A stretch of 64,000 nucleotides of DNA from Nostoc sp. FACHB-973 (GTDB lineage: Bacteria > Cyanobacteriota > Cyanobacteriia > Cyanobacteriales > Nostocaceae): positions 1 to 64,000 of the forward strand of contig NZ_JACJSJ010000004.1 in the NCBI RefSeq assembly GCF_014698115.1, in the 5' to 3' direction. The stretch's first letter is position 1. The number at the start of each line of letters is the position of its first letter. Of this stretch, positions 26,266 to 39,759 are shown one piece after another. The notes under the pieces are model-generated. The model saw nothing but the letters and a program-made list of their open reading frames with translations. It was not told where the DNA came from and ran no database searches. The position numbers were made by a program, and so were the translations under genes.

Positions 26266-27501
26266 TTACCTATATGTACTATTAGTTATGTATCTACTTA
26301 CCAATCGTATTGGTCGGATTAAGTAGTATAGGAAATAAAGACCAGATGGCAATGGGAAAACTTCTCGGTCTTCTTGATTTGAATCAGTTATTACCAACCT
26401 GGTTGTAAAACTCAAAAATTGCCACACTAGATAAACACGAACTGGCATTCTACTAAGTGGGCCTTTGATCATCAAGTGGTGAAAAAAAAGTTTAATAAAC
26501 AGTGGAGTTTTAACTTCCGTGAAAAGCTGTTTCTGCATCCGCACAGCATAAATTAAAATTGTCGGATCGATTTGGATCTGTTGTTGAATAGCCTGCTTTA
26601 CTTGATCTGGTAAAGGGGTATTCAGGACAGTGTTAACTATTAACAGACTAATAAAGAATGGTCTTTCAAGTTCTAGACTGTTTACTTGCTGCAATAATTG
26701 TTCCCAATCTAATGGTTTTTGAATACGCAATAATTCAGCTAAATCGCAAATCTGAGCCAAAGATTCTCTACCTTCATTAACTCCTCTGGCAACTTGTACA
26801 GCCAGGATGATCAACAAATCATTAGAAGACAAGTCAAGGATAGATTCGCCTTTGAGTGTTAAAGACCTGCTTCGTTGCCACAAAGTTTCAAAATCAGGAA
26901 GTTTAAAAGGGAAGTAAGATAAGGGAGTCAATTCACAGTGAAGATCCACCACTATTTCTGGTTTCTGGCTATGGACAAAAGTTTGTTGCCAACCATAGTA
27001 GTCAGCTTCTAGTTGATATTTATGAACAATCAATAATTCTTGAGCTTTGACTATATCCTGTTGTCTCACCAGAATATCTAGGTCGCTAAATTGTCTCATG
27101 GCTAAGTTGCCATAAATAGAAATAGCTAAAACAAGGCCTTTAAAAGGAATTGCCCGAATTTTGTGAGCTTCAAAAAGCTTAAGAATGTTAAGCAATTCGT
27201 GGCTCAAAAATAAGTTGCGGCTAGCATTAGTGTGGTAATGATTCTGAAGCTGAGTTAAAACTGTTTTGGGAATAGCTTCTTTCCCAGTAGTCTTGAGACT
27301 CTGGTACAGGAGTGGTATCGTCCCATGATATGCTGCTATTTCCATGAGATATGTCCAGTCTATCTGTTGCTGGAGTATGGTATTAATTCGCTCTGCTGTT
27401 TTGGGGTCTATATGAGTTCGGGTACAACACAGAAGTAGCTCAATTTCTGGACGTTTAATCTTTGTTGGCAATTGAGTAATAGGCTTGTTTAAGGTAATCA
27501 T
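26266..27501 (-). CDS. Nucleotidyltransferase family protein (NTP_transf_5-like), last gene of the RiPP-like cluster
   Basis: The 411-residue protein has IPFKGLVLAISIYGN followed by LAMRQFSDLDILV, with the DxD (D140, D142) of the nucleotidyltransferase fold. This family is often found in lasso-peptide loci; in at least one Bacillus lasso cluster such a gene is linked to tailoring of a phosphorylated peptide. The start ATG 27501 lies 3 bp after the stop of the ABC transporter gene, so the two are co-transcribed. A plausible role is transfer of a nucleotidyl or sugar group to the peptide or a carrier, but this is inference. Confidence 0.8.
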   Translation of the reverse strand: MITLNKPITQLPTKIKRPEIELLLCCTRTHIDPKTAERINTILQQQIDWTYLMEIAAYHGTIPLLYQSLKTTGKEAIPKTVLTQLQNHYHTNASRNLFLSHELLNILKLFEAHKIRAIPFKGLVLAISIYGNLAMRQFSDLDILVRQQDIVKAQELLIVHKYQLEADYYGWQQTFVHSQKPEIVVDLHCELTPLSYFPFKLPDFETLWQRSRSLTLKGESILDLSSNDLLIILAVQVARGVNEGRESLAQICDLAELLRIQKPLDWEQLLQQVNSLELERPFFISLLIVNTVLNTPLPDQVKQAIQQQIQIDPTILIYAVRMQKQLFTEVKTPLFIKLFFHHLMIKGPLSRMPVRVYLVWQFLSFTTRLVITDSNQEDREVFPLPSGLYFLYYLIRPIRLVSRYITNSTYR

Positions 27502-27504
27502 AAA

Positions 27505-29322
27505 TTACTTATAGTGTTGGGCTTGGGTTTCAAACAAGTTTGCATAGCTACTACCCAGATTTATCAGTTCTTCATGGGTGCCGCTTTCAATAATTGAACC
27601 GTTTGCCATCACATAGATACAGTCAGCCATTCTGACGGTTGATAAGCGATGGCTGATGAGGATAGCAGCTTGATTTTTAATCAGTTGACGGAAATTCTGA
27701 AACACCTCTTCTTCAGCTTTCGGGTCTAGAGCGCTAGTTGGTTCATCCAACACAATTAACTGTGAATCTCGCAAAAATGCCCTTGCCAAAGCGATTTTTT
27801 GCCACTGACCGATGCTCAATTCTTCTCCTTGTTCAAAGAATTTACCCAGTATGGTATCGTAACCTTGAGGTAGCTTTCTGATAACATCATCAGCACCGGA
27901 ACGACGGGCAGCGGCGGTGATTTTTTCGTAGTTGAATGGCAGGTTGATATTTGCCAACCAAATGTTTTCTTTAGCAGTCAGATGATATTTTGTATAGTCT
28001 TGAAAAATCACGCTAATTTGACTGCGGAGAGCAGCAATTTCAAATTGGCGTAAATCTATGCCATCAATGGTAATGCTACCAAAAGTGGGATCGTATAAGC
28101 GACACAAAAGCTTAATTAAAGTAGTCTTACCTGAGCCGTTTTCTCCTACAAATGCCACCACTTCTCCTGGGCGAATAGTCAGATTAATATCCTGAAGTGC
28201 CTGACGCTTCGTAGTTGCATATTGAAAACTGACATGATTAAACACAATGCCATTTTGCATTGGTATGGGAAGAGGTTTTGGATATAACGGTTCTATAACC
28301 TTTGGTTTCAGGTCTAGAAATTCATATAAGTTAGCAAGAAATAGATTGTCTTCATATAAACCAGACAGACCACCCAAGAGACTTTTTAGGTCGTTTTGTC
28401 CTCGTTGCAATGCCTGGTAATAGAGTACTAAGTCACCAAAGCGGATAGTGCCTTGCATGGTTTGATAAATAATGAAACCATAGGCAGCAAAAACTAAAGT
28501 TGTCGCCGTTGCTTGGGCACCAAGATTAGCCACAGACTGTCTTTTGGTCATGGCTATGTTTTCCTGATATAGTTGGCGCCGCAAGCGCAGATACCACTGA
28601 CTAAAGAAAGAACCTAAATCAAACAAGCGAATTTCTTTAGCGTGTTGCTCTGTAGTCAGTATCCGACTCAAGTAGCCTGCTTGGCGTTCCTGGGCTGTCT
28701 TTTGACGCTGCCAATGATACATGATGCCGGAGTATTTCACCCGCACTATCAAAGCCGGAATCGCGGCAACAAATAAGATAACTCCTATTCCCCAATGCAA
28801 TGACAGTAGCAACCCCAGCATCGCCACCAAAGAGATACTACTCAAACATAGCCATGCCAAACGATGTAGGATTTGCCCTGGTCGAGAAGGAGCTTCTTTT
28901 TGCGCTCGCTGCAAGGCATCATAATATTCAGAGTTTTCATAATACTCCAGGTCTACCTCAATTGATTTAGCATGGAGGATGTTTTGCATGTAGTCAGTGA
29001 GTTGCTGAGATTGGGCGGCATACACCAGTTCAGTCAGGGAAGAACACAGGGTAGTTACTAGGGTGATAGCAACAAAGAAGCCAAGCAAAAGTAATACTTG
29101 ATTAAAGGCGGCTCCTTTGTCGGCAACATTAACACTGGCGGCTATTGTATCTACGATGAGTTTGGTGAGATAGAGAGAAAGTAGAGGCAATAAACCTTGA
29201 ATAACCAAAAGTGCAACCAAAGCAATAGTCAAACGAGGACTACTGTTCCAAACTAGGCGCAACGCAGGCAGAATGCGTAAGCTTTGCTGGATTTTATATC
29301 TTAAAGTTTTGCCTGCTTTCAT
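27505..29322 (-). CDS. ABC transporter, fused permease-ATPase (peptide exporter type), 605 aa
   Basis: The start ATG 29322 (MKAGKTLRYKIQQSL) is preferred over an upstream start at 29391 because it begins 4 bp after the stop of the protease gene. The N-terminal half has about six membrane segments (for example LTIALVALLVIQGLLPLLSL). The ATPase has Walker A GENGSGKTT (about 390), signature LSIGQWQK (about 500) and Walker B LIVLDEPTSALD, then the H-loop ISHR. It lacks a C39 peptidase domain, in keeping with the separate protease gene next to it. It probably exports the mature peptide (lasso D role). Confidence 0.9.
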   Translation of the reverse strand: MKAGKTLRYKIQQSLRILPALRLVWNSSPRLTIALVALLVIQGLLPLLSLYLTKLIVDTIAASVNVADKGAAFNQVLLLLGFFVAITLVTTLCSSLTELVYAAQSQQLTDYMQNILHAKSIEVDLEYYENSEYYDALQRAQKEAPSRPGQILHRLAWLCLSSISLVAMLGLLLSLHWGIGVILFVAAIPALIVRVKYSGIMYHWQRQKTAQERQAGYLSRILTTEQHAKEIRLFDLGSFFSQWYLRLRRQLYQENIAMTKRQSVANLGAQATATTLVFAAYGFIIYQTMQGTIRFGDLVLYYQALQRGQNDLKSLLGGLSGLYEDNLFLANLYEFLDLKPKVIEPLYPKPLPIPMQNGIVFNHVSFQYATTKRQALQDINLTIRPGEVVAFVGENGSGKTTLIKLLCRLYDPTFGSITIDGIDLRQFEIAALRSQISVIFQDYTKYHLTAKENIWLANINLPFNYEKITAAARRSGADDVIRKLPQGYDTILGKFFEQGEELSIGQWQKIALARAFLRDSQLIVLDEPTSALDPKAEEEVFQNFRQLIKNQAAILISHRLSTVRMADCIYVMANGSIIESGTHEELINLGSSYANLFETQAQHYK

Positions 29323-29326
29323 ATTT

Positions 29327-29770
29327 TTAAAGATGCTCTTTTGCAAAAGATGCCAGTTGGCTAAAATTAGAAAGGTCTGCAACATCGCCAATTACAACCT
29401 GTCCCTGATTTTCTAACCACGCATGAGCCTTTAACTCTCCTTCTTGATCTTTGGCAACACCAATGCAGAGATTAGATGTATAACCGTGGCGACTCATGAA
29501 AAACTGGCAAGTCAAGGCACGCGCTAGACACTTGACACCAGGCATATAATGACTGCTAACTTCCACAGCCCAGACGATTTTATCAATAGAGATGTGGTAT
29601 TTTTCTTGGCATTTAGGTTTGGTATTACTTAGCTTTAATAGAAGTTTATGCAAGGTTTTAAATGACAGCAACCATAAACCTAATCTAACTAATGTCAATA
29701 CAATAAAAGTGTTAATTAAAAGTTGTTTTTTCTGATATTCTAATTTGAGAAACTTAGATAAGTGCTTCAT
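29327..29770 (-). CDS. Lasso-peptide B2-type leader protease (transglutaminase-like), 147 aa
   Basis: The sequence contains PGVKCLARALTCQFFMSRHG with catalytic Cys81, AHAWLE with His116 and GDV with Asp129: the triad and spacing of the lasso B2 protein (Transglut_core3). An N-terminal hydrophobic stretch (INTFIVLTLVRLGLWLL) may anchor it. B2 removes the leader after a conserved Thr at the penultimate leader position, guided by the PqqD-like B1 protein (family knowledge). The ABC exporter follows at 4 bp. Finding B2 without a cyclase is the key oddity of this locus. Confidence 0.88.
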   Translation of the reverse strand: MKHLSKFLKLEYQKKQLLINTFIVLTLVRLGLWLLSFKTLHKLLLKLSNTKPKCQEKYHISIDKIVWAVEVSSHYMPGVKCLARALTCQFFMSRHGYTSNLCIGVAKDQEGELKAHAWLENQGQVVIGDVADLSNFSQLASFAKEHL

Positions 29771-29830
29771 TTTTACTCAAATGTTTGATAATTTTGTTAT
29801 TTACAACGCAATTTGGATTTTCTAAATCTT

Positions 29831-29995
29831 AGAGGATATTTGAAAAGTAGTTAGCTGTGATTTTAGGCACTTTTTGATCCCCCCTAACCCCCCTTAAAAA
29901 GGGGGGAACCGGAATTAAAGTCCCCCTTCTTAAGGGGGATTTAGGGGGATCTAGAACGTTTTGCTACTAACAAGAGGACTTTTCAAACATCCTCT
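29831..29995. mobile_element. MITE copy 1, 165 bp, termini AGAGGATATTTGAAAAGT
   Basis: Terminal inverted repeats AGAGGATATTTGAAAAGT / ACTTTTCAAACATCCTCT enclose two G/C-rich hairpins (CCCCCCTTAAAAAGGGGGG and CCCCCTTCTTAAGGGGG). Other copies lie at 36521-36685 (inverted) and 39591-39745. Its right end touches the stop codon of the epimerase gene (TAA, 29995-29997) and separates the epimerase from the protease within the RiPP-like cluster. Confidence 0.8.
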
Positions 29996-30966
29996 TAAGC
30001 AGATAGAGGAAACCGTTGTTTTGAATAATTATCATTGTTGCTCAAAGATGATGCAATAAAAAAATTAATAGCCGACTCTGGTGACCACTGAGGATGAAAA
30101 TCTAAACATGTAGATATCCTGGAAATATCAGCTTGTGAATGCTGAATGTCTCCCAAACGAGGAGAAACGAAATTAATTTCTGATTGCCATTGCGGAAAAT
30201 GATTTTTCAGAATATCAATCAACTGCACTAAAGAAGTAGATTTTCCAGTTCCTAAGTTACAAATTAAGGATGAACCAGGGGTAAAATTTGCTTTGAATGC
30301 TTGAGAAAAAGCCCCCACTACGTCTTTAACATAAATAAAGTCTCTGGTTTGATTTCCATCACCATAAATAGTAATTGGCAAGCCACGTTGCATAACATCA
30401 AAAAATCGGGAAATTACGCCAGAGTAGCTTGAATTAGGAACTTGTCTAGGGCCAAATACGTTAAAAATTCGTAAGCCAACAAATGAAAAACCTAGTTGTT
30501 TAGCAAAGATACTAGCGTATTGTTCACTCACCAATTTTTGTAAGCCGTAGGGTGACAGAGGAGAAGTTTTTTGTTCTTCTGAAATTGGTAATTGGGTGAG
30601 ATTACCGTAAACAGATGCGGAACTGGCAAACACTAACTTAGGAATAGTTAAAGCTTGGCAAAGTTGAATCACAGCCAGGGTTGCCGAAAGATTATTGTGA
30701 TGAGCCTCTAGGGGACGATACAAAGATTCTGTCACCGATGAAATAGCTGCTAAATGGGCGATACCATCAACTTTCTCTGTAAAATCTTCTGGTTGACATA
30801 TCAAAATATCTTTTTGGAGAAACGTCAGACGAGGATGTTTGGGTAAGTTCTCTAAGCGTCCAGTGGTCAGATTATCAACTACAGTGACACGATGACCTTC
30901 TGATAATAATTGTTCTGTAAGATGAGAGCCAATAAATCCGGCTCCGCCAGTGACAATAAAATGCAT
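29995..30966 (-). CDS. NAD-dependent nucleotide-sugar epimerase/dehydratase, 323 aa
   Basis: ATG 30966 gives MHFIVTGGAGFIGSHLTEQL with the GGAGFIG dinucleotide-binding loop. A longer frame upstream overlaps the neighbour and is rejected. Catalytic features are SSASVYG and SPYGLQKLVSEQY (YxxxK), typical of UDP-glucose 4-epimerase-like extended SDRs. It begins 4 bp after the upstream glycosyltransferase stop and probably supplies a sugar nucleotide to the glycosyltransferases of the cluster. The stop codon abuts a MITE end. Confidence 0.9.
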   Translation of the reverse strand: MHFIVTGGAGFIGSHLTEQLLSEGHRVTVVDNLTTGRLENLPKHPRLTFLQKDILICQPEDFTEKVDGIAHLAAISSVTESLYRPLEAHHNNLSATLAVIQLCQALTIPKLVFASSASVYGNLTQLPISEEQKTSPLSPYGLQKLVSEQYASIFAKQLGFSFVGLRIFNVFGPRQVPNSSYSGVISRFFDVMQRGLPITIYGDGNQTRDFIYVKDVVGAFSQAFKANFTPGSSLICNLGTGKSTSLVQLIDILKNHFPQWQSEINFVSPRLGDIQHSQADISRISTCLDFHPQWSPESAINFFIASSLSNNDNYSKQRFPLSA

Positions 30967-30970
30967 GATC

Positions 30971-31870
30971 TTAAATTTGCTTAGTAGATATAGATAATCG
31001 CAACTCCTCATACCTAGCGGTTTCACCCCGCATTTCTCGATAGCGATGCAAAACTCTACGCGCTTGCTCTATTTGATGAGTTTGAATATGCAAATTGGCA
31101 AGTTGGAGGTAGATATTGTAAAAGCAAGGATCGAGAAAATTAACAGGGATTTTTAGGAATTCTGGATTGCGATCGATGACTTTTTCCTTAACGCGCAGGT
31201 GGTTAGTGAACATCTGCTCTTTATCTTGAGAAAGATTATTTGGCGATTGCCGATAACGTGCTAAGGGTTGATTTAAAAAATAAATCGGAAATTTTTCAAT
31301 CAGGCGCAGCCATAAATCGTAATCTTCACAACATCTCAGAGTTTCATCAAACAAACCCACTTTATCTAAACAGTCTCGACGCACAACAACCGTTAGGACT
31401 GGAATGTAGTTGTATCTAAAAAGAGTCCATAATACCTGAAGATTCGGGGTAGGATATGCTGTATTGTACGAACCCGGAAACAAACCTTCTTTATCACAAA
31501 AAAAGAGTGAATCTGAATAGATCAAACCAATGCGTGGATTGGCTTCCAAGACGGAAATCTGTTTTTCTAACTTCTGAGGTTCCCAGAGATCGTCATCATC
31601 TAAAAAGGCAATATACTTTCCTCTAGCAGAGCGAATTCCAGCATTGCGAGCCGCAGATAATCCTTGATTGGCTTGATGAATAGCGGTAATGCGATCGCGA
31701 TCGCTAAATTGAGCCAAAACTTGCTGAGTATTATCCTGAGAACCATCATTGATGACAATAATTTCGTAGTCTTCGTAGGTTTGAGCCAAAACGCTGTTAA
31801 TTGCCTGACTGACAAGATGGCCACGCTGGTAAGTAGGAATAATAACGCTGACGGTTGGCTTAAATTGCAT
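30971..31870 (-). CDS. Glycosyltransferase family 2, downstream copy of a tandem pair, 299 aa
   Basis: ATG 31870 gives MQFKPTVSVIIPTYQRGHLV. The GT-A signature includes VINDGSQDNTQQ and KYIAFLDDDDLWEP (metal-binding Asp triplet). The C-terminal helical part has IQTHQIEQARRVLHRYREMR. It is closely similar, in both protein and DNA, to the gene at 31926-32834, including the flanking sequence, so the two arose by tandem duplication. It probably adds sugar to the peptide or to an oligosaccharide made in the cluster; acceptor unknown. Confidence 0.88.
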   Translation of the reverse strand: MQFKPTVSVIIPTYQRGHLVSQAINSVLAQTYEDYEIIVINDGSQDNTQQVLAQFSDRDRITAIHQANQGLSAARNAGIRSARGKYIAFLDDDDLWEPQKLEKQISVLEANPRIGLIYSDSLFFCDKEGLFPGSYNTAYPTPNLQVLWTLFRYNYIPVLTVVVRRDCLDKVGLFDETLRCCEDYDLWLRLIEKFPIYFLNQPLARYRQSPNNLSQDKEQMFTNHLRVKEKVIDRNPEFLKIPVNFLDPCFYNIYLQLANLHIQTHQIEQARRVLHRYREMRGETARYEELRLSISTKQI

Positions 31871-31925
31871 GTTTAAAAATTTACCTCCAAATCTGGCTTT
31901 GCCAGTAACAAGAAAATGCTTCAGC
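31871..31925 (-). pseudogene. Fossil of the epimerase gene start between the two glycosyltransferases
   Basis: Read on the minus strand, 31885-31921 gives KHFLVTGKARFGG, a decayed match to the true epimerase start MHFIVTGGAGFIG, in the same position relative to the upstream glycosyltransferase stop. The duplication unit was therefore a glycosyltransferase gene plus the first few dozen bases of the epimerase gene. Confidence 0.65.
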
Positions 31926-32834
31926 TTAAATTGGCTCAGTAGATGTAGATATAGATAATCGCAACTCCTCATACCTGGGGGTTTCACCCCGTACTTCTCG
32001 ATAGCGTTGCAAAACTCTACGCGCTTTCTCTATTTGATGATTTTGAAGATGTAAATTGGCAAGTTCAAGGTAGATATTGTAAAAGTAAGGATCGAGAAAA
32101 TGAACAGGAATTTTTAGAAATTCTGGATTGCGCCCAATGACTTTTTCCTTAACTCGTAGCAAGCTAACTATAAATAGTTCTTGATTTTGAGAAAGACTAT
32201 TTGATGATTTGCGATAACGTGCTAAAGGCTCATTTAAAAAATAAATCGGAAAATGTTCAATCAGCCGTAACCATAAATCATAATCTTCACAAGGAATAAC
32301 AGTTTCATCAAACAAACCCACTTGTTCTAAACAGTCTTGACGCACAACAACCGTCGGCATTGGAATGTAGTTGTACCTAAAAAGAGTAAAGACGACCTGA
32401 AGATTAGGAGTGGGAAACGCTGCATTGTACGACCTCTTTGATAAACCCTTTTGAGCAGAAAAAGAGACTGAATCTGAATAGATTAAGCCAAGATATGGAT
32501 TTGAATCCAAGACAGAAATCTGTTTTTCTAACTTTTGAGGTTCCCAGAGGTCGTCGTCATCTAAAAAAGCGATATACTTCCCTCTAGCAGAGCGAATTCC
32601 AGCATTGCGAGCCGCAGACACTCCTTGATTTGCTTGATGAATTGTGGTAATGCAATGGCGATCGCTAAATTGAGCCAGGACTTGCTGAGTATTATCCTGA
32701 GAACCATCGTTGATGACAATAATTTCGTAGTCTTTGTAGGTTTGTGCCAAAACGCTGTTAATTGCCTGACTGACAAGATGGCCGCGCTGGTAAGTAGGAA
32801 TAATAACGCTGACGGCTGGCTTAAAAACTTGCAT
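31926..32834 (-). CDS. Glycosyltransferase family 2, upstream copy of a tandem pair, 302 aa
   Basis: ATG 32834 gives MQVFKPAVSVIIPTYQRGHL. The same GT2 signatures occur as in its neighbour: VINDGSQDNTQQ, KYIAFLDDDDLWEP, CEDYDLWLRLIEHFP. The paralogues differ mainly around residues 120-150 and in the C-terminal third, consistent with divergence after duplication and possibly different acceptors or donors. It follows the kinase gene with a 52-bp gap. It is cytosolic or membrane-peripheral, with no membrane helix. Confidence 0.88.
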   Translation of the reverse strand: MQVFKPAVSVIIPTYQRGHLVSQAINSVLAQTYKDYEIIVINDGSQDNTQQVLAQFSDRHCITTIHQANQGVSAARNAGIRSARGKYIAFLDDDDLWEPQKLEKQISVLDSNPYLGLIYSDSVSFSAQKGLSKRSYNAAFPTPNLQVVFTLFRYNYIPMPTVVVRQDCLEQVGLFDETVIPCEDYDLWLRLIEHFPIYFLNEPLARYRKSSNSLSQNQELFIVSLLRVKEKVIGRNPEFLKIPVHFLDPYFYNIYLELANLHLQNHQIEKARRVLQRYREVRGETPRYEELRLSISTSTEPI

Positions 32835-32886
32835 ATTTAAAAATTTGCTTAGTAAATATAGGCAGATATCCAAATTACTGGTGTTG

Positions 32887-33900
32887 CTAAACCAAAGTAT
32901 GAATCAAGCGCAAGTTTTCTAAAATAACATCATAAATTTGCCCCAAATTTCCCAAATTATCAGGAAGTAATAACTCCCGCACAGGAACAGTCTTTGCCAA
33001 TTGACCTAATTCTTGAAACTCCTGTCTGCACTGTTGAGGAGTGAGGAAAGCACGCCCATAGGAATTGAACATTAGATGCTTCATGGCTTCAGGCAGAGAA
33101 AGAGAGTTAATGATAGGTGCTGTGAGGTTTGAGTCACGTTCTCCTAATATGTACACAGCAATTAATGGCAAAGCTTGCGATTGAAACTGCCACTGTTCTC
33201 TATCTTTTATTTGCAAATCTATAAAGCGTTTATCTAGACTAGTTGATACTAGTGATAAATCTTCTATTGAGCCGTGAATGGCATTTGCAGAATTAGGCCA
33301 CAGGCGTAGACGAGGATAAGCAGACTGTACCCAAAACCTTTTTTCATCAGGAATCAGTGCGGCAATATCATCTGCCAATACGGAGAATCCACGGCTAGCC
33401 AACGCTGCTGCTGTGGTTGATTTACCTGCGCCTGATTGTCCTAAAATGGCGATCGCGCTACCATCAACCGCAACCACGCTAGCATGAAGACAAGTCACTC
33501 CCCGCAGCCGTAACAGATGACCGAGTACGCAACCCAGCAGCAAAGATACTGCATCTGTAAATAGTGCATCTCTAGACCAAAAACCCCAAACTTGACTACC
33601 ATCAGGATTCAAGATGAATTCCAAGCAATCAACCCCATCAAAAGACCGTATCCTCCAGTAAGTACCGTCATCTCGGTGTGTCGTCCATAGGTGAAAGCCT
33701 GTTTGTTGATACCATTCAAGCGGCACATTCCAAAAAGCCTGTTCGAGTAACGGTAGTTGACTTTGTTGTTCGCCAACTAGGTCAATAGCCACATCTATTG
33801 ATGTAGAGCTATTGACAGTAGCTAACCCTGGAAGCAGTCGATTAATAGATAGGTTGAGTCCATAAAATTGATAGGAATAATTATCATTTTTTATCAACAT
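32887..33900 (-). CDS. HPr-kinase-like peptide serine kinase, 337 aa
   Basis: The C-terminal half is an HprK-type P-loop kinase: TCLHASVVAVDG, Walker A LGQSGAGKSTTAAAL (about 154-162) and VLADDIAAL with the acidic pair. The N-terminal half resembles the extra domain of lasso-peptide kinases. Homologues in lasso clusters phosphorylate the C-terminal serine of the precursor (family knowledge). Here neither precursor ends in Ser (ends GLP and TPP), so the site would have to be one of the internal Ser/Thr residues, or the target differs. It lies directly downstream of the precursor genes. Confidence 0.85.
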   Translation of the reverse strand: MLIKNDNYSYQFYGLNLSINRLLPGLATVNSSTSIDVAIDLVGEQQSQLPLLEQAFWNVPLEWYQQTGFHLWTTHRDDGTYWRIRSFDGVDCLEFILNPDGSQVWGFWSRDALFTDAVSLLLGCVLGHLLRLRGVTCLHASVVAVDGSAIAILGQSGAGKSTTAAALASRGFSVLADDIAALIPDEKRFWVQSAYPRLRLWPNSANAIHGSIEDLSLVSTSLDKRFIDLQIKDREQWQFQSQALPLIAVYILGERDSNLTAPIINSLSLPEAMKHLMFNSYGRAFLTPQQCRQEFQELGQLAKTVPVRELLLPDNLGNLGQIYDVILENLRLIHTLV

Positions 33901-33935
33901 TTGTGTTTATTTTTATTTGCAAATTCAAATTTTTT

Positions 33936-33968
33936 AAAATCCCGACTTATTTAAAAAGTCAGGATTTT
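33936..33968 (-). terminator. Hairpin after the precursor genes, before the kinase
   Basis: AAAATCCCGACTT (33936-33948) and AAGTCAGGATTTT (33956-33968) form a 12-of-13-bp stem around a 7-nt loop, with A/T tracts on both sides. It sits 58 bp downstream of precursor 1 in the direction of transcription. It is a candidate attenuator that would let precursor mRNA exceed that of the processing genes, as is common in RiPP operons. Confidence 0.5.
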
Positions 33969-34025
33969 TTGAAAACTAAAACTTACATAATTTTCCTCCA
34001 ATGGAAGAAAAATGTAGAAAATGTA

Positions 34026-34166
34026 TTACGGAAGACCGGTGATGGGTGCGGCTGTAGTACTAAAACCACCACTACCACCGACTTGTTGTGTCAAACCAGA
34101 TATTTTGCCGTGAGCTTTCAATTCCGGCTCAGAATAATTCTTTCTCACGTTTTCAGATTGTGACAT
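34026..34166 (-). CDS. RiPP precursor peptide 1 with lasso-type leader, 46 aa
   Basis: The peptide begins MSQSENVRKNYSEPEL, continues KAHGKISGLTQQ and ends VGGSGGFSTTAAPITGLP. YSEPELKAHG is a perfect YxxPxLxxxG recognition motif for PqqD-like RREs, followed by LT, as in lasso leaders where Thr is the penultimate leader residue. If cleaved after LTQ, the core would be Q plus VGGSGGFSTTAAPITGLP, with no Asp, Glu, Lys, Arg or Cys. A lasso macrolactam needs Asp/Glu at position 7-9 and is excluded. Ser/Thr residues could be phosphorylated or glycosylated. Located between precursor 2 and the kinase. Confidence 0.82.
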   Translation of the reverse strand: MSQSENVRKNYSEPELKAHGKISGLTQQVGGSGGFSTTAAPITGLP

Positions 34167-34208
34167 TTGAAGAATCCTTACGTGTGTAAACAATAGCCTC
34201 ATAAGAGG

Positions 34209-34280
34209 GCAAGTAGAAAGGTGTATTTAATCTAGATTTATTAGGCAATTTTATTGACCTAATAAATCCTTCCTACTTGC
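34209..34280 (-). promoter_or_regulatory. Stem-loop between the two precursor genes
   Basis: Outer arms GCAAGTAG (34209-34216) / CTACTTGC (34273-34280) enclose an inner perfect stem TTTATTAGG (34237-34245) / CCTAATAAA (34258-34266). On the minus strand it lies between precursor 2 and precursor 1. It may terminate, process or stabilise the precursor transcript. Confidence 0.4.
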
Positions 34281-34352
34281 TAACTCTACCCTGCCATCAT
34301 TTATATGACAGCGAGTGAAGTTGAGCTTTTGGTGTTTTTTTCTACTTAACTA

Positions 34353-34490
34353 CTAAGGAGGAGTCCCAGTGGTAGTAGGTATGGGGAATCCGGTTGTAGT
34401 ACCAAAACCACCGCTACTACCCACTTGTTGTGTCAAACCAGATATTTTACCGTGAGCTTTCAATTCAGGCTCAGAATAGTTCTTTTTCAT
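34353..34490 (-). CDS. RiPP precursor peptide 2 with lasso-type leader, 45 aa
   Basis: The peptide begins MKKNYSEPELKAHG, continues KISGLTQQ and ends with VGSSGGFGTTTG then FPIPTTTGTPP. The leader is identical to that of precursor 1 from NYSEPEL to LTQQVG. The core diverges and is longer, and is again devoid of Asp, Glu, Lys, Arg and Cys but rich in Thr, Gly and Pro. Upstream of the ATG the homologous N-terminus (ATGTTTCAATTTTAA) carries a stop, and translation starts at a codon that is GTG (Val) in precursor 1. The two peptides are thus paralogues that duplicated and diverged in the core. Confidence 0.82.
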   Translation of the reverse strand: MKKNYSEPELKAHGKISGLTQQVGSSGGFGTTTGFPIPTTTGTPP

Positions 34491-34868
34491 GTTTTAAAAT
34501 TGAAACATTTGAGTAATCCTTGTTTTTTGTGCTTTGCTGATTTGGAATTATCAGATTATGAATACAGTACAACGATCGCGTCGTTGTTTTTATAAAGTTT
34601 GTGTAAAATATGTGCTATTTTTTGTTATTAAAAGTTATCAAAAAGACCATAATTAAAGATTATTTTAAAAATAAAAATCAATTGTGTTCAATTAATGCTA
34701 AAAACTGCAATTGATGTAGGTTGAATTGAGGATAATCTACGAGAACTGGTAGAGTAACCCAACCTACTTTTCTGCTGAAGCTATATCATTGTTTTGTATC
34801 TTCTAAGTCTATCGATTTCGTCATTTATATTTATATGTAAGACATAATCAAACTTAATAATGGAAAAT
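34491..34868. other. AT-rich spacer upstream of the precursor genes
   Basis: These 378 bp probably hold the promoter of the precursor genes on the minus strand. The only marked structure is a pair GTAGGTTG (about 34716-34723) / CAACCTAC (about 34760-34767), the arms of a common small repeat. I found no third precursor gene here on either strand. Confidence 0.4.
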
Positions 34869-36050
34869 TTAGGCAGAGATTGGCTTAGTAGTAGATGCCA
34901 AATCTTCATATACTCGGAACAGCCGATTTTGTAAATTCGCTTCATCATATTGTTCGACAATCGCTTGCCGTGCTTTTGCAAGATGTGATTCTCGTTCTTG
35001 GGGAGGTTGATTGACGACTTTAATCATTGCCTTTGCCAAAGCTTCTGGGTTTTCAGATTCTACCAAAGTACAAAATTCTTCAATAAAAGTACCCCGATAA
35101 GCTGGCAAATCACAAGTAATCACCGGGCGTTCGCAGGCAACTGCTTCAATGAGTGTGGAAGGAAAAGCATCGTTAGTAGGATAATTGATAATTACATCTG
35201 CTAAGTTGTAGCCTGTAGGCATGAAACTATAAGGTAGGGCGGGCATCCAGCGCAGGTTTTCTAATAAGCCAAGTTGTTGAGCTTGTTTGCTGATGCTTTC
35301 GTATATAGTTACTGCTTCTTCCCCACCAGCACGCCCTAGCTTTGAAAAGACGAGTACCGTTGGTTTGGTGAATTGGGGAAAAGCCTGTGTATAGGCTGTA
35401 AATATCTGCTCGTGGTTGTACAGTTTAGACCAACCACGGGGCGAAAGCAGAATTGTGGCTTCTTCATCAATCTTCAAGATTTCCCGTCGCCACTTTGGTA
35501 AATCTTTTGTGACTCCAGAGCGAAAATGTTTAGGGTTTGTCCCTAGAGGAATTAATTCTACCCGTTGTTCGGGGTTCAACAGTGCTTTGGATTTTTCTAT
35601 CAAATTGGGTGTCTCTACAATCAGCACACCAGTATGCTTAAATACTTGGCTAACCCTATCTTTATGCTTGCTGGATTCCTTTTCTGGTTGTAGCAAATGA
35701 TTTAAAAAGCCCCAAGCAGAGACGACAAGAGGGCTTAAATTCGCCAGGACACAACACTGGGCGTGCCAGCCAATGGCGTGGACATGGATGATATCAGGCT
35801 GGAATTCGTCTGCAAGTTTACGTAGCGGCTCCGCCATTTCCTCGGCCATCCGATCTTCGTATGGGTAGGTGTTGGTAAACTCCTCTTGATACTTTCGCCA
35901 AACAGTGGGGAAATAGCGATAATTTTTGGGAGCTTCGGTTTCATAGGGGTCTACATCTCCTAGTAGCCAAACTTCATAACCTGCTTTAACTACCCAATTT
36001 AAGGGTCTTGTCAAGGCAACGCCCCCAGCACCAATCATCAGTACACGCAT
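34869..36050 (-). CDS. Glycosyltransferase family 4, 393 aa
   Basis: This is a GT-B fold protein: N-terminal MRVLMIGAGGVALTRPLNW and IIHVHAIGWHAQC; C-terminal donor site with LLSPRGWSKLYNHEQIF and the E-x7-E-like region NDAFPSTLIEAVACERPVI. These are typical of GT4 retaining transferases in exopolysaccharide and natural-product loci. It follows the PqqD-like gene by 28 bp on the same strand. It may glycosylate the peptide, or build an oligosaccharide with the two GT2 enzymes. Substrate unknown. Confidence 0.9.
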   Translation of the reverse strand: MRVLMIGAGGVALTRPLNWVVKAGYEVWLLGDVDPYETEAPKNYRYFPTVWRKYQEEFTNTYPYEDRMAEEMAEPLRKLADEFQPDIIHVHAIGWHAQCCVLANLSPLVVSAWGFLNHLLQPEKESSKHKDRVSQVFKHTGVLIVETPNLIEKSKALLNPEQRVELIPLGTNPKHFRSGVTKDLPKWRREILKIDEEATILLSPRGWSKLYNHEQIFTAYTQAFPQFTKPTVLVFSKLGRAGGEEAVTIYESISKQAQQLGLLENLRWMPALPYSFMPTGYNLADVIINYPTNDAFPSTLIEAVACERPVITCDLPAYRGTFIEEFCTLVESENPEALAKAMIKVVNQPPQERESHLAKARQAIVEQYDEANLQNRLFRVYEDLASTTKPISA

Positions 36051-36078
36051 GATTTGATTTTTTGCTTTAAGTTAAGAG

Positions 36079-36369
36079 TTAAGAATCAGTAATTTCCACT
36101 AGTCCAGCCTTAACCAATTTATCAATAAACTTGAGCAAGTCTTGTTTTAACTTCTCTGGCTCGACATCATACTCTTTTAGCAAGGTGTCGTAAGCTGTCT
36201 GGATAGAATCTGACTCAGTTAGCACAAAGAATATTTTTGTACCAACTTCGTTTTGACTAAAATATTCTTCAGTTTGCAGATTCAACAAAACTGACTCCCC
36301 TGCTAAGTCTTGAGTCAGAACATTTGCAGATAAGGATACTTTTTTATTTAAGACTATTTGTGTTGTCAT
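36079..36369 (-). CDS. PqqD-family RiPP recognition protein (lasso B1-like), 96 aa
   Basis: This stand-alone RRE-type protein (MTTQIVLNKKVSLSANVLTQ, SVLLNLQTEEYFSQNEVGTK, QTAYDTLLKEYDVEPEKLKQ) has the three-helix wing of PqqD/lasso B1 proteins. These bind the YxxPxL leader motif and deliver the precursor to the protease (family knowledge). It is the first gene of the cluster. Its presence with a B2 protease and two YxxPxL leaders strongly supports a shared RiPP pathway. Confidence 0.85.
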   Translation of the reverse strand: MTTQIVLNKKVSLSANVLTQDLAGESVLLNLQTEEYFSQNEVGTKIFFVLTESDSIQTAYDTLLKEYDVEPEKLKQDLLKFIDKLVKAGLVEITDS

Positions 36370-36520
36370 TTGTTACAAGAGGTCATGATTGTAGTTGATT
36401 ATAAGTTTTTTTTGGCATTCTGTAGGGTTTTTCAAGACTTTGATTTCACTCTTAATCTGATTGAGTTCTCCTTTAAAAGTGTGAATTTCAAACCAATGAT
36501 TTTGGAGAAGCCAAGCGGTA

Positions 36521-36685
36521 AGAGGATGTTTGAAAAGTCCTTTTCTTAGTAGCAAAACGTTTTAGATCCCCCTAAATCCCCCTTAAAAAGGGGGACTTTG
36601 ATTCCAGTTCCCCCCTTTTTAAGGGGGGTTAGGGGGGATCAATAAGAGCCTAAAATCACAGCTAAATACTTTTCAAACAACCTCT
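36521..36685. mobile_element. MITE copy 2, 165 bp (inverted relative to copies 1 and 3)
   Basis: It starts AGAGGATGTTTGAAAAGT and ends TACTTTTCAAACAACCTCT, with the same two G/C-rich hairpins as 29831-29995. It lies upstream of the first gene of the RiPP-like cluster, so two copies in opposite orientation bracket most of the cluster. A fragment of another palindromic repeat (GGGCACAGCATTGCTGTGCCC) follows at 36688. The 36370-36850 spacer has no gene. Confidence 0.8.
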
Positions 36686-36850
36686 AAGGGCACAGCATTG
36701 CTGTGCCCCTACGACAGATGTGGTTTAAATACATCAAAAGTGCTGTAATTATTGGCTTAGCATATCCTACAGCGATCGCCTTAATGAACGCATCGTATAA
36801 GTGTCCTATTTTGGACTAGGATCAATGACCTATATAAGTATTAATTATTG

Positions 36851-39004: not shown

Positions 39005-39759
39005 AAGACGTATAAGTTGAACTTGCCACTTTCTACACAATTAATTTACGCTAGTTCAACTGAAAATTATGCCTCTTGGAACCTGTGAAATCTATGAATT
39101 GGCAAAATAACCACATAGGCACATGAAAAAGTGGGAATTTAATTTCAGCGTCCAATTTCTGAAATTTAGAGAATGGCGATCGCAATATTAGACAAATGAC
39201 AATCCTTATTTCATAAGCCTTTAAAACCAATTTTCTAAAATTTATCTGTCTTTTGCATCCCAATCCGATGGAAATACCGTGGTTTTCAATTAACCCCAAA
39301 ATGCCCCTGAAAAACCCAGAATTTTACCCCGATAATGTCAAAATTTTATGACACTACTGTTATCCCGCCACAACTACACCTAATTTTTGGCATTGCACAA
39401 ACAAACAATGAAATTTATGCATTAACTCCTCATTCTCTCTGCGCCTCTGCGCCTCTGCGTGAGATAAATCATCCTTTTTTTAACGAACCGCCTTCTCTAC
39501 GAGAGGCTTCCGCCAACGCGCAGCGCCTCGTAGAGAAGAACGCCAAGGGCGCAGAGAGAAGAAAAAACAAGTAATCTTCTAGAGGGTGTTTGAAAAGTGT
39601 TTCTCTGTGACTTTAGGCACTTTTAGATCCCCCCTAACCCCCCTTAAAAAGGGGGGAACCGGAGTTGAAGTCCCCCTTTTTAAGGGGGATTTAGGGGGAT
39701 CTAAAACGTTTTGCTACCAACAAGAGGACTTTTCAAACATCCTCTTAGCAAGAGGGCAC
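39005..39759. other. Long spacer with dispersed repeats and MITE copy 3
   Basis: The 755-bp gap contains a CTCTGCGCCTCTGCGCC array (about 39438-39460) and an inverted small dispersed repeat, TCTACGAGAGGCTTCCGCC with GCGCCTCGTAGAGAA, at about 39494-39538. The third copy of the 165-bp MITE family lies at 39591-39745. Open frames here have no coding character. Confidence 0.5.
39591..39745. mobile_element. MITE copy 3, 155 bp
   Basis: It starts AGAGGGTGTTTGAAAAGT and ends ACTTTTCAAACATCCTCT. The interior is nearly identical to copy 1 at 29831-29995 (shared GATCCCCCCTAACCCCCC and TTTAGGGGGATCTA), in the same orientation. Confidence 0.8.

Follow-up and report, generated by a model that had tools for sequence, protein, structure and literature searches.

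The locus described here lies at positions 26266-36369 of a 64,000-nucleotide stretch (the window) of the genome of the cyanobacterium Nostoc sp. FACHB-973 (contig NZ_JACJSJ010000004.1), and it is, with a probability that we put at about 0.7, a lasso-derived module for a ribosomally synthesized and post-translationally modified peptide (RiPP) that has no macrolactam cyclase and makes a linear, phosphorylated, and glycosylated peptide, whose leader is removed by the B2 peptidase. Every part is encoded on the minus strand, as found from the list of open reading frames (ORFs) and the NCBIfam and Pfam models, and the order of transcription is PqqD, GT4, two precursors, HprK-like kinase, two GT2, epimerase, B2, ABC exporter, and NTP_transf_5 (Table 1). 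The parts named in the initial annotation of this DNA are all present where it had placed them, as judged from these scores, and no asparagine (Asn)-synthase-like cyclase is found at the locus, in agreement with its statement that the window has none.

The initial annotation had also noted that parts for lasso recognition and proteolysis are present without a cyclase, and had proposed a search of the rest of the genome; the lack of a lasso cyclase now extends to the whole genome of 9.5 Mb, in which PF00733 matches occur in six places. Four of these are full-length Asn-synthase-family proteins, the fifth is a frame of 71 residues next to one of these four, and the sixth, a short protein, is taken for QueC from its sequence. 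On the lasso cyclase model (cut-off 525 bits), the four full-length proteins reach 34.8-238.5 bits, and each scores higher on ordinary asparagine-synthase or amidotransferase models. The cyclases of canonical loci mostly score 937-1108 bits, with two split matches at ~812 and 664 bits. The cut-off alone could miss odd cyclases, since the divergent cyclase of locus L100 (G055:C72) scores 370 bits (E 2.4e-110). In a FastTree analysis of 65 proteins, the four Asn synthases of FACHB-973 cluster together (99) and are separated from the cyclases of B2 loci, with a warning for long branches. B2 is itself represented once, the window B2 being the single PF13471 match of the genome.

The same state is found in the relatives. 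When a model of eight precursors is searched against 217 genomes of the family, the precursor type is found in 13 of them, that of FACHB-973 included (best E <1e-20); eight more genomes have weakly similar precursors (best E 5e-5 to 3e-4), and all eight of these have cyclases. In 12 of the 13 module genomes, no cyclase over the cut-off is present, and the best scores are under 370 bits as well. Ten of these 12 have no match to the cyclase model even at E 1e-90, a threshold that would have caught the divergent G055 cyclase, given its E value, and the remaining two (G246 and G094) have best scores of 243 and 223 bits. In the 13th genome (G229), the cyclase belongs to a second, separate canonical lasso locus with its own precursors. 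Some of the cyclase-negative genomes consist of few contigs (10 in G392, 10 in G393, and four in G330), and gaps in the drafts are therefore an unlikely cause of the missing cyclase.

It could be argued that this is a lasso locus whose cyclase acts in trans from elsewhere in the genome, as this encodes four Asn-synthase-family proteins, of which two lack the N-terminal Cys. This is highly improbable, since all four score below the lasso cyclase cut-off and the cores are without ring acceptors (see below), and two of the paralogues, L001 and L003, when tested for co-occurrence, do not track the module. Of the 13 module genomes, 12 have the L003 type, but so do 16 of the 19 same-genus genomes that lack the module (28 of the 32 genomes tried), and a close L001 orthologue (>85% identity) occurs in one of 13 and three of 19, respectively; the 19 are those used of the 20 listed same-genus genomes without a match, of at least 20 in total, G384 (72% complete) being left out. 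A cyclase in trans was rejected as the preferred explanation on account of the scores below the cut-off, the separate group in the tree, and this lack of co-occurrence. The two Asn-synthase-like proteins without the N-terminal Cys are L003 (G000:C77) and L004 (G000:C53), and the gene adjoining L004 is taken, from its sequence, for a pyridoxal phosphate-dependent decarboxylase.

The precursors have the leader of a lasso pathway and a core that lacks its ring acceptor. The YxxPxL...(L/I)T leader, the RiPP recognition element (RRE), and the B2 peptidase are all present, and precursor 1 scores 31.5 bits on NF033528 (lasso_cyano), just under the cut-off of 33. The genome has two precursor matches, both at the window locus, and the 13 module loci together have 28 precursors, in which the leader is YSEPELKAHGKISGLT in 27 and YYEPELKAHGKISGLT in one. 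Numbering of the core takes Thr as the penultimate leader residue, as in lasso precursors according to PMC10368454. The core starts, with few exceptions, as (Q/A)VGGSGGFxTT, in which Val2, Gly3, Ser5, Gly7, Phe8, Thr10, and Thr11 are invariant; none of the 28 cores has a Cys, most have Thr/Ser/Pro-rich tails, and the tail lengths and C-termini differ widely. Asp or Glu is found at core positions 7-10 in one of the 28 module precursors and in 63 of the 71 leader-pattern ORFs of cyclase loci, a set that retains at least three chance-looking ORFs; at positions 7-9, the counts are 55/71 for the cyclase loci and 0/2 for the window cores. Counted per locus, an acceptor at positions 7-10 is present in 1/13 versus 38/42 (Fisher p 5e-8, relatedness ignored). 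In the window clade, the cyclase and the acceptor residue that it needs are missing together. The earlier proposal of a linear product is thus strengthened by the absence of a cyclase genome-wide, by L001 and L003 not tracking the locus, and by cores without ring acceptors.

The arrangement of the module is strongly preserved. As the block recurs in 12 further genomes, spread with that of FACHB-973 over four genus codes, it is more than a chance assembly; this was brought out by the comparison of neighbourhoods among relatives that had been suggested for this DNA. Two of the 13 loci (L188 and L190) are cut by contig ends, and in all 11 uncut loci the order is PqqD, GT4, one to four precursors, HprK, GT2, B2, ABC, and NTP_transf_5, with an extra opposite-strand gene between GT4 and the precursors in L067; two genomes have four precursors each. 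GT4 is present in all 13 loci, in one of them cut at a contig end, and stands between PqqD and the precursors in 12, the contig of L188 ending before PqqD. The GT4 protein is 83-92% identical to those of three relatives, and a scan of genome contigs with two short exact patterns finds one distant match and nine close relatives, all of them from cyanobacteria and 84-100% identical; the nine are Nostoc paludosum FACHB-159, N. linckia z4, N. calcicola FACHB-3891, Nostoc sp. ATCC 43529, Desmonostoc muscorum FACHB-395, two metagenome-assembled genomes of Desmonostoc, Cylindrospermum sp. FACHB-282, and one uncultured cyanobacterium. Among the 13 loci, GT2 is duplicated in tandem (repeats 30984-31517 and 31945-32478) in the window alone, a single copy being present in the relatives whose contig spans the GT2 gene. 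Of the 11 uncut loci, eight have a full-length epimerase, two retain remnants of 51 and 31 residues, and one has no epimerase.

In five loci (L058, L064, L067, L187, and L191), DNA similarity to the window ends upstream at 36370-36489; the downstream end is at 26270-26280 in L058, L187, and L191, and at 27.1-27.5 kb, within NTP_transf_5, in L064 and L067. Of the remaining loci, L188 is a short contig, and six have flanking DNA in common with the window; in L190 this holds for the upstream side alone, and in the other five for both sides. In genome G401, which has no module, the window flanks 25213 and 36867 sit 434 bases apart and enclose no part of the module, and this is an empty site. The limits of similarity, the shared and unshared flanks, and this empty site indicate that the module is gained or lost as a unit and that it occupies more than one neighbourhood. 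The block common to all neighbourhoods holds no additional gene from the window ORF list.

The module genes are under purifying selection, the median ratios of nonsynonymous to synonymous substitution (dN/dS) between loci being 0.13 for ABC, 0.14 for PqqD, 0.15 for HprK, 0.18 for GT4, 0.25 for GT2, 0.28 for NTP_transf_5, and 0.41 for B2, and the leader is nearly unchanged, with variation at synonymous positions (median dN 0, dS 0.34). These values bear on the idea that the locus is a decaying lasso locus, a remnant after accidental loss of the cyclase, with which the lost upstream start of precursor 1, the epimerase remnants in two relatives, and the faster evolution of B2 would agree. A state common to 13 genomes of four genus codes, constrained in all seven genes, with a nearly constant leader and with precursors multiplied to four in two genomes, makes decay highly unlikely.

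When compared with the canonical cyanobacterial lasso loci (for example, L043, L056, and L089; a cluster of this type with its cyclase is described in PMC9332814), the window locus has the leader type, PqqD, B2, HprK, ABC, and NTP_transf_5 in common with them. It differs in having no cyclase, no ring acceptor, and no PqqD adjoining B2; instead, GT4, GT2, and the epimerase lie between PqqD and B2, and a GT4-family glycosyltransferase is not part of the canonical lasso sets. Because both the cyclase and the ring acceptor are missing, the product is by definition not a lasso peptide. HprK-like kinases are also known from paeninodin (PadeK) and pseudomycoidin (PsmK/PsmN), and in the latter a nucleotidyltransferase accompanies the kinase, which acts first, the nucleotidyltransferase being then needed for the hexose on phospho-Ser, according to the review PMC9266682; as described there, these peptides, unlike the module product, are made into lasso rings by a cyclase and are phosphorylated at a C-terminal Ser.

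The closest known system, also cyclase-free and with a similar set of parts, is that of the linear polyphosphorylated peptides (LPPs), which their authors restrict to Bacillota (Popov et al. 2026, PMC13381572). As presented in that paper, an RRE and an HprK-like kinase put several phosphates on core Ser3, and no ring is made. The module likewise has no cyclase and has a discrete RRE, an HprK-like kinase, an NTP transferase, and an MsbA-like exporter, as well as a YxxP leader, variable C-termini, and a linear product, predicted in our case from the genes. By this analogy, the module looks to work like an LPP system, with Ser5 as a candidate for LPP-like phosphates on an N-terminal core Ser. The differences concern the peptidase, which for LPPs is the signal-peptidase-like serine protease LppS instead of B2 (none of the ten locus proteins, to which the search was limited, belongs to this SpI/SipW-like family), the LPP leader motif YxxPxVLxHQxIxFETxxS, which the module leaders do not match, and the GT4 and GT2 enzymes, which have no counterpart in the LPP core set. 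Because the peptidase and the leader motif both differ, the product is by definition not an LPP. The initial annotation had stated that no pathway with exactly this combination is described; this still applies to the peptidase, leader, and glycosyltransferases, but the cyclase-free combination of RRE, kinase, NTP transferase, and exporter is already known from the LPP family. Glycocins and mycofactocin are RiPPs glycosylated by dedicated glycosyltransferases, but these systems are not known to combine a lasso leader with an RRE/B2 pair and an HprK-like kinase, and the mycofactocin pathway uses a radical SAM enzyme. The models of the SynChlorMet (SCM)/HPr-rel-A systems all remain below their cut-offs (given in parentheses): TIGR04249, 22 bits (125); TIGR04352, 35.7 (200); TIGR04248, 22 (100); and TIGR04353, 16.7 (35). 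Judged by titles and the starts of abstracts, no cyanobacterial cyclase-free lasso-type cluster was recognized in the open-licence literature.

From the gene set, decoration with phosphate and sugar, and export, can reasonably be inferred; the locus has no knot-forming enzyme and has gained sugar-adding enzymes, and therefore its products are probably small, linear, phosphorylated, sugar-coated peptides. By analogy with pseudomycoidin and LPP, we infer the following order of steps, together with the modification sites, the cut site, the export, and the biological role. The PqqD protein would bind the YSEPEL leader, the HprK-like kinase would phosphorylate the core, most likely at the invariant Ser5, and NTP_transf_5 and GT4/GT2 would then put sugar on the phosphate and/or on Thr10-Thr11 and the Thr/Ser/Pro-rich tail. 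The leader would be cut off by B2 at GLT(Q), and the resulting linear phospho/glycopeptide of 16-26 residues would leave the cell through the ABC protein, where it may have the matrix or signalling role that the initial annotation had suggested. It is also conceivable, although rather unlikely, that the product is an LPP-like phosphopeptide and that the glycosyltransferases and the epimerase serve a separate glycan, or that the peptide primes or regulates this glycan and is not itself a glycopeptide. GT4, GT2, and the epimerase do belong to families common in polysaccharide synthesis, the epimerase is dispensable among module loci, and LPP clusters lie in glycosyltransferase-rich capsule loci, as reported in PMC13381572; however, 12 of the 13 loci have GT4 placed between the PqqD gene and the precursors, and the common block holds no further gene from the window list, both of which speak against this reading. 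A different ring, closed for example head to tail by B2 or another protein, is very unlikely. B2 is a transglutaminase-fold Cys enzyme in which the Cys of CLARAL and the His of AHAW are retained in the alignment, and cysteine proteases can catalyse transpeptidation in other RiPP pathways, but by profile and alignment this B2 is an ordinary one, and the high variability of the tail lengths and C-termini does not fit with such a closure.

The setting of this module among lasso loci was obtained from B2, which 85 of the 291 genomes sampled in the order possess. The 100 regions fetched cover 103 listed B2 places besides that of the window, and 64 of them have an Asn-synthase gene, the order often being PqqD-B2-cyclase-precursor(s)-HprK-ABC-NTP_transf_5; among the 36 regions without this gene, many lack HprK and a recognizable precursor or reach contig edges. 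A tree of concatenated PqqD, B2, and HprK was calculated for 60 loci, 50 with an Asn-synthase gene and 10, the window included, that are cyclase-less and have all three proteins. Four loci of the window clade group together (100/100) within a set of ten that holds six cyclase-bearing loci (100/100). To account for the ten cyclase-less loci, six changes are required on the careful tree (bootstraps 6-6), and the starred branches force at least four; among these loci, L085 and L094 are weak cases, with odd gene order and, for L094, a 10-kb contig, and L070 is in genome G061, which has cyclases at other loci. A single origin of all cyclase-less loci, which was considered, is not supported, as six changes are needed and the other cyclase-less loci are on separate branches. 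Because cyclase-bearing loci surround the cyclase-less ones, loss of the cyclase is the simpler reading of a tree that by itself gives no direction of gain versus loss. A tentative and rather speculative extension is that lasso pathways repeatedly shed the knot, and that separate cyanobacterial losses of the cyclase converted a common chassis of RRE, B2, kinase, and NTP transferase to the making of linear peptides with differing cores (GGSGGF-TT cores, RGG-repeat tails, and 8-12-residue cores), the recruited GT4 and GT2 here building a glycan on the peptide phosphate, which would be a new exported peptide-phospho-sugar linkage.

Some other cyclase-less loci deserve mention in their own right. 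L060 (G173) and L061 (G247, cut by a contig end) are lasso-like, with precursors ending in RGG or GGR repeats, most cores still having Asp at position 9 or 7, and L060 has an extra 332-aa protein between HprK and ABC. L054 (G055) and L063 (G242) are minimal, PqqD-B2-two precursors-HprK-NTP_transf_5, with cores of 8-12 residues and Ser at core position 3 in three of four. None of these four genomes has a cyclase over the cut-off, the divergent one of G055 (370 bits) belonging to another locus. Across the other cyclase-less loci, Asp or Glu is present at positions 7-9 in six of nine leader-pattern ORFs, so that for these loci a cyclase acting in trans, or one lost recently, is less improbable. 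L092, L106, L108, L121, L122, and L124 each pair PqqD with B2, have neither a cyclase nor a kinase label, and are not accompanied by a convincing precursor; they are possibly further RiPP types.

Several observations weigh against a functional cyclase-free module of the type proposed here. At the other cyclase-less loci just described, the rule that a missing cyclase goes with a missing acceptor fails, and within the module itself one exceptional core of the 28 has Asp at position 9. Of the three catalytic residues of B2, the alignment places two, Cys and His, and B2 evolves faster than the other six genes (0.40-0.43 without mis-started ORFs). In precursor 1, an in-frame TAA at 34490-34510 cuts off the upstream start that relatives use, and because it follows that start, translation here probably begins at an internal ATG; G395 and G394 likewise have one TAA within a precursor match. 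The glycosyltransferases could have some other acceptor, and in the LPP system no effect was seen when the NTP transferase was deleted, as reported in PMC13381572. Structure models calculated from four close sequences each are unusable for GT4 and HprK (mean pLDDT, the predicted local distance difference test score, of 49.6 and 31.6).

If the proposal is correct, the lasso chassis is a general platform for leader-guided phosphorylation and glycosylation, in which the knot is optional, and this platform exists in a phylum outside Bacillota, to which the LPP authors restrict LPPs. The compact single-strand module is available in named strains, such as Nostoc paludosum FACHB-159, Nostoc linckia z4, and Cylindrospermum sp. 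FACHB-282, and it is a direct test bed for the chemistry of NTP_transf_5 and of GT4/GT2 enzymes that are possibly peptide-directed.

Table 1. Parts of the module in the order of transcription, with window positions and assignments
Feature	Position	Strand	Assignment or sequence
PqqD-like discrete RRE (B1 protein, leader-binding)	36079-36369	minus	PF05402, 54.8 bits
GT4-family glycosyltransferase	34869-36050	minus	PF00534, 55.8 bits
Precursor 1, 45 aa	34353-34490	minus	leader YSEPELKAHGKISGLT, core QVGSSGGFGTTTGFPIPTTTGTPP
Precursor 2, 46 aa	34026-34166	minus	leader YSEPELKAHGKISGLT as in precursor 1, core QVGGSGGFSTTAAPITGLP
HprK-like peptide kinase	32887-33900	minus	PF07475, 34.8 bits (cut-off 33.3)
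GT2-family glycosyltransferase, copy a	31926-32873	minus	PF00535, 128.9 bits
GT2-family glycosyltransferase, copy b (tandem duplicate)	30971-31987	minus	PF00535, 130.3 bits
NAD-dependent sugar epimerase/dehydratase	29995-31026	minus	PF01370, 195.4 bits
B2 leader peptidase (transglutaminase-like Cys protease)	29327-29770	minus	NF033537, 114.5 bits (cut-off 33); PF13471, 82.6 bits
MsbA-like ABC exporter, 605 aa from ATG 29322	27505-29322	minus	PF00005, 118.8 bits
NTP_transf_5 nucleotidyltransferase-like protein	26266-27501	minus	PF14907, 196.9 bits

The PqqD-like protein scores 55.1 bits on NF033536 (lasso_PqqD_Bac), under the cut-off of 80, and its nearest solved chains are TbiB1 (Protein Data Bank entry: 5v1u) and a lasso PqqD chaperone (9x90). 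When solved structures are searched, B2 and NTP_transf_5 have no match, GT4 has a single weak one, and the matches of HprK and GT2 are weak or generic. The P-loop GQSGAGKST and the LADDI motif of the kinase are kept in the alignment with the HprK-like kinases of other lasso loci. The listed TTG start of the ABC exporter at 29391 would overlap B2, and the exporters of relatives, as called, have 605 residues in several cases and 628 in others.

Promoter-like sites are at the level of shuffled sequences (28 versus a mean of 28.3), and terminator-like sites are slightly more frequent than in shuffles (14 versus a mean of 8.3, standard deviation 3.2), to which a dispersed repeat contributes in part. 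This repeat of ~168 bases is present at 29830-29997, 36519-36688, and 39580-39747, the copies being 91-94% alike; the module has one copy within it, between the epimerase and B2, and another a short way upstream, and there are many matches to the repeat in same-genus genomes.

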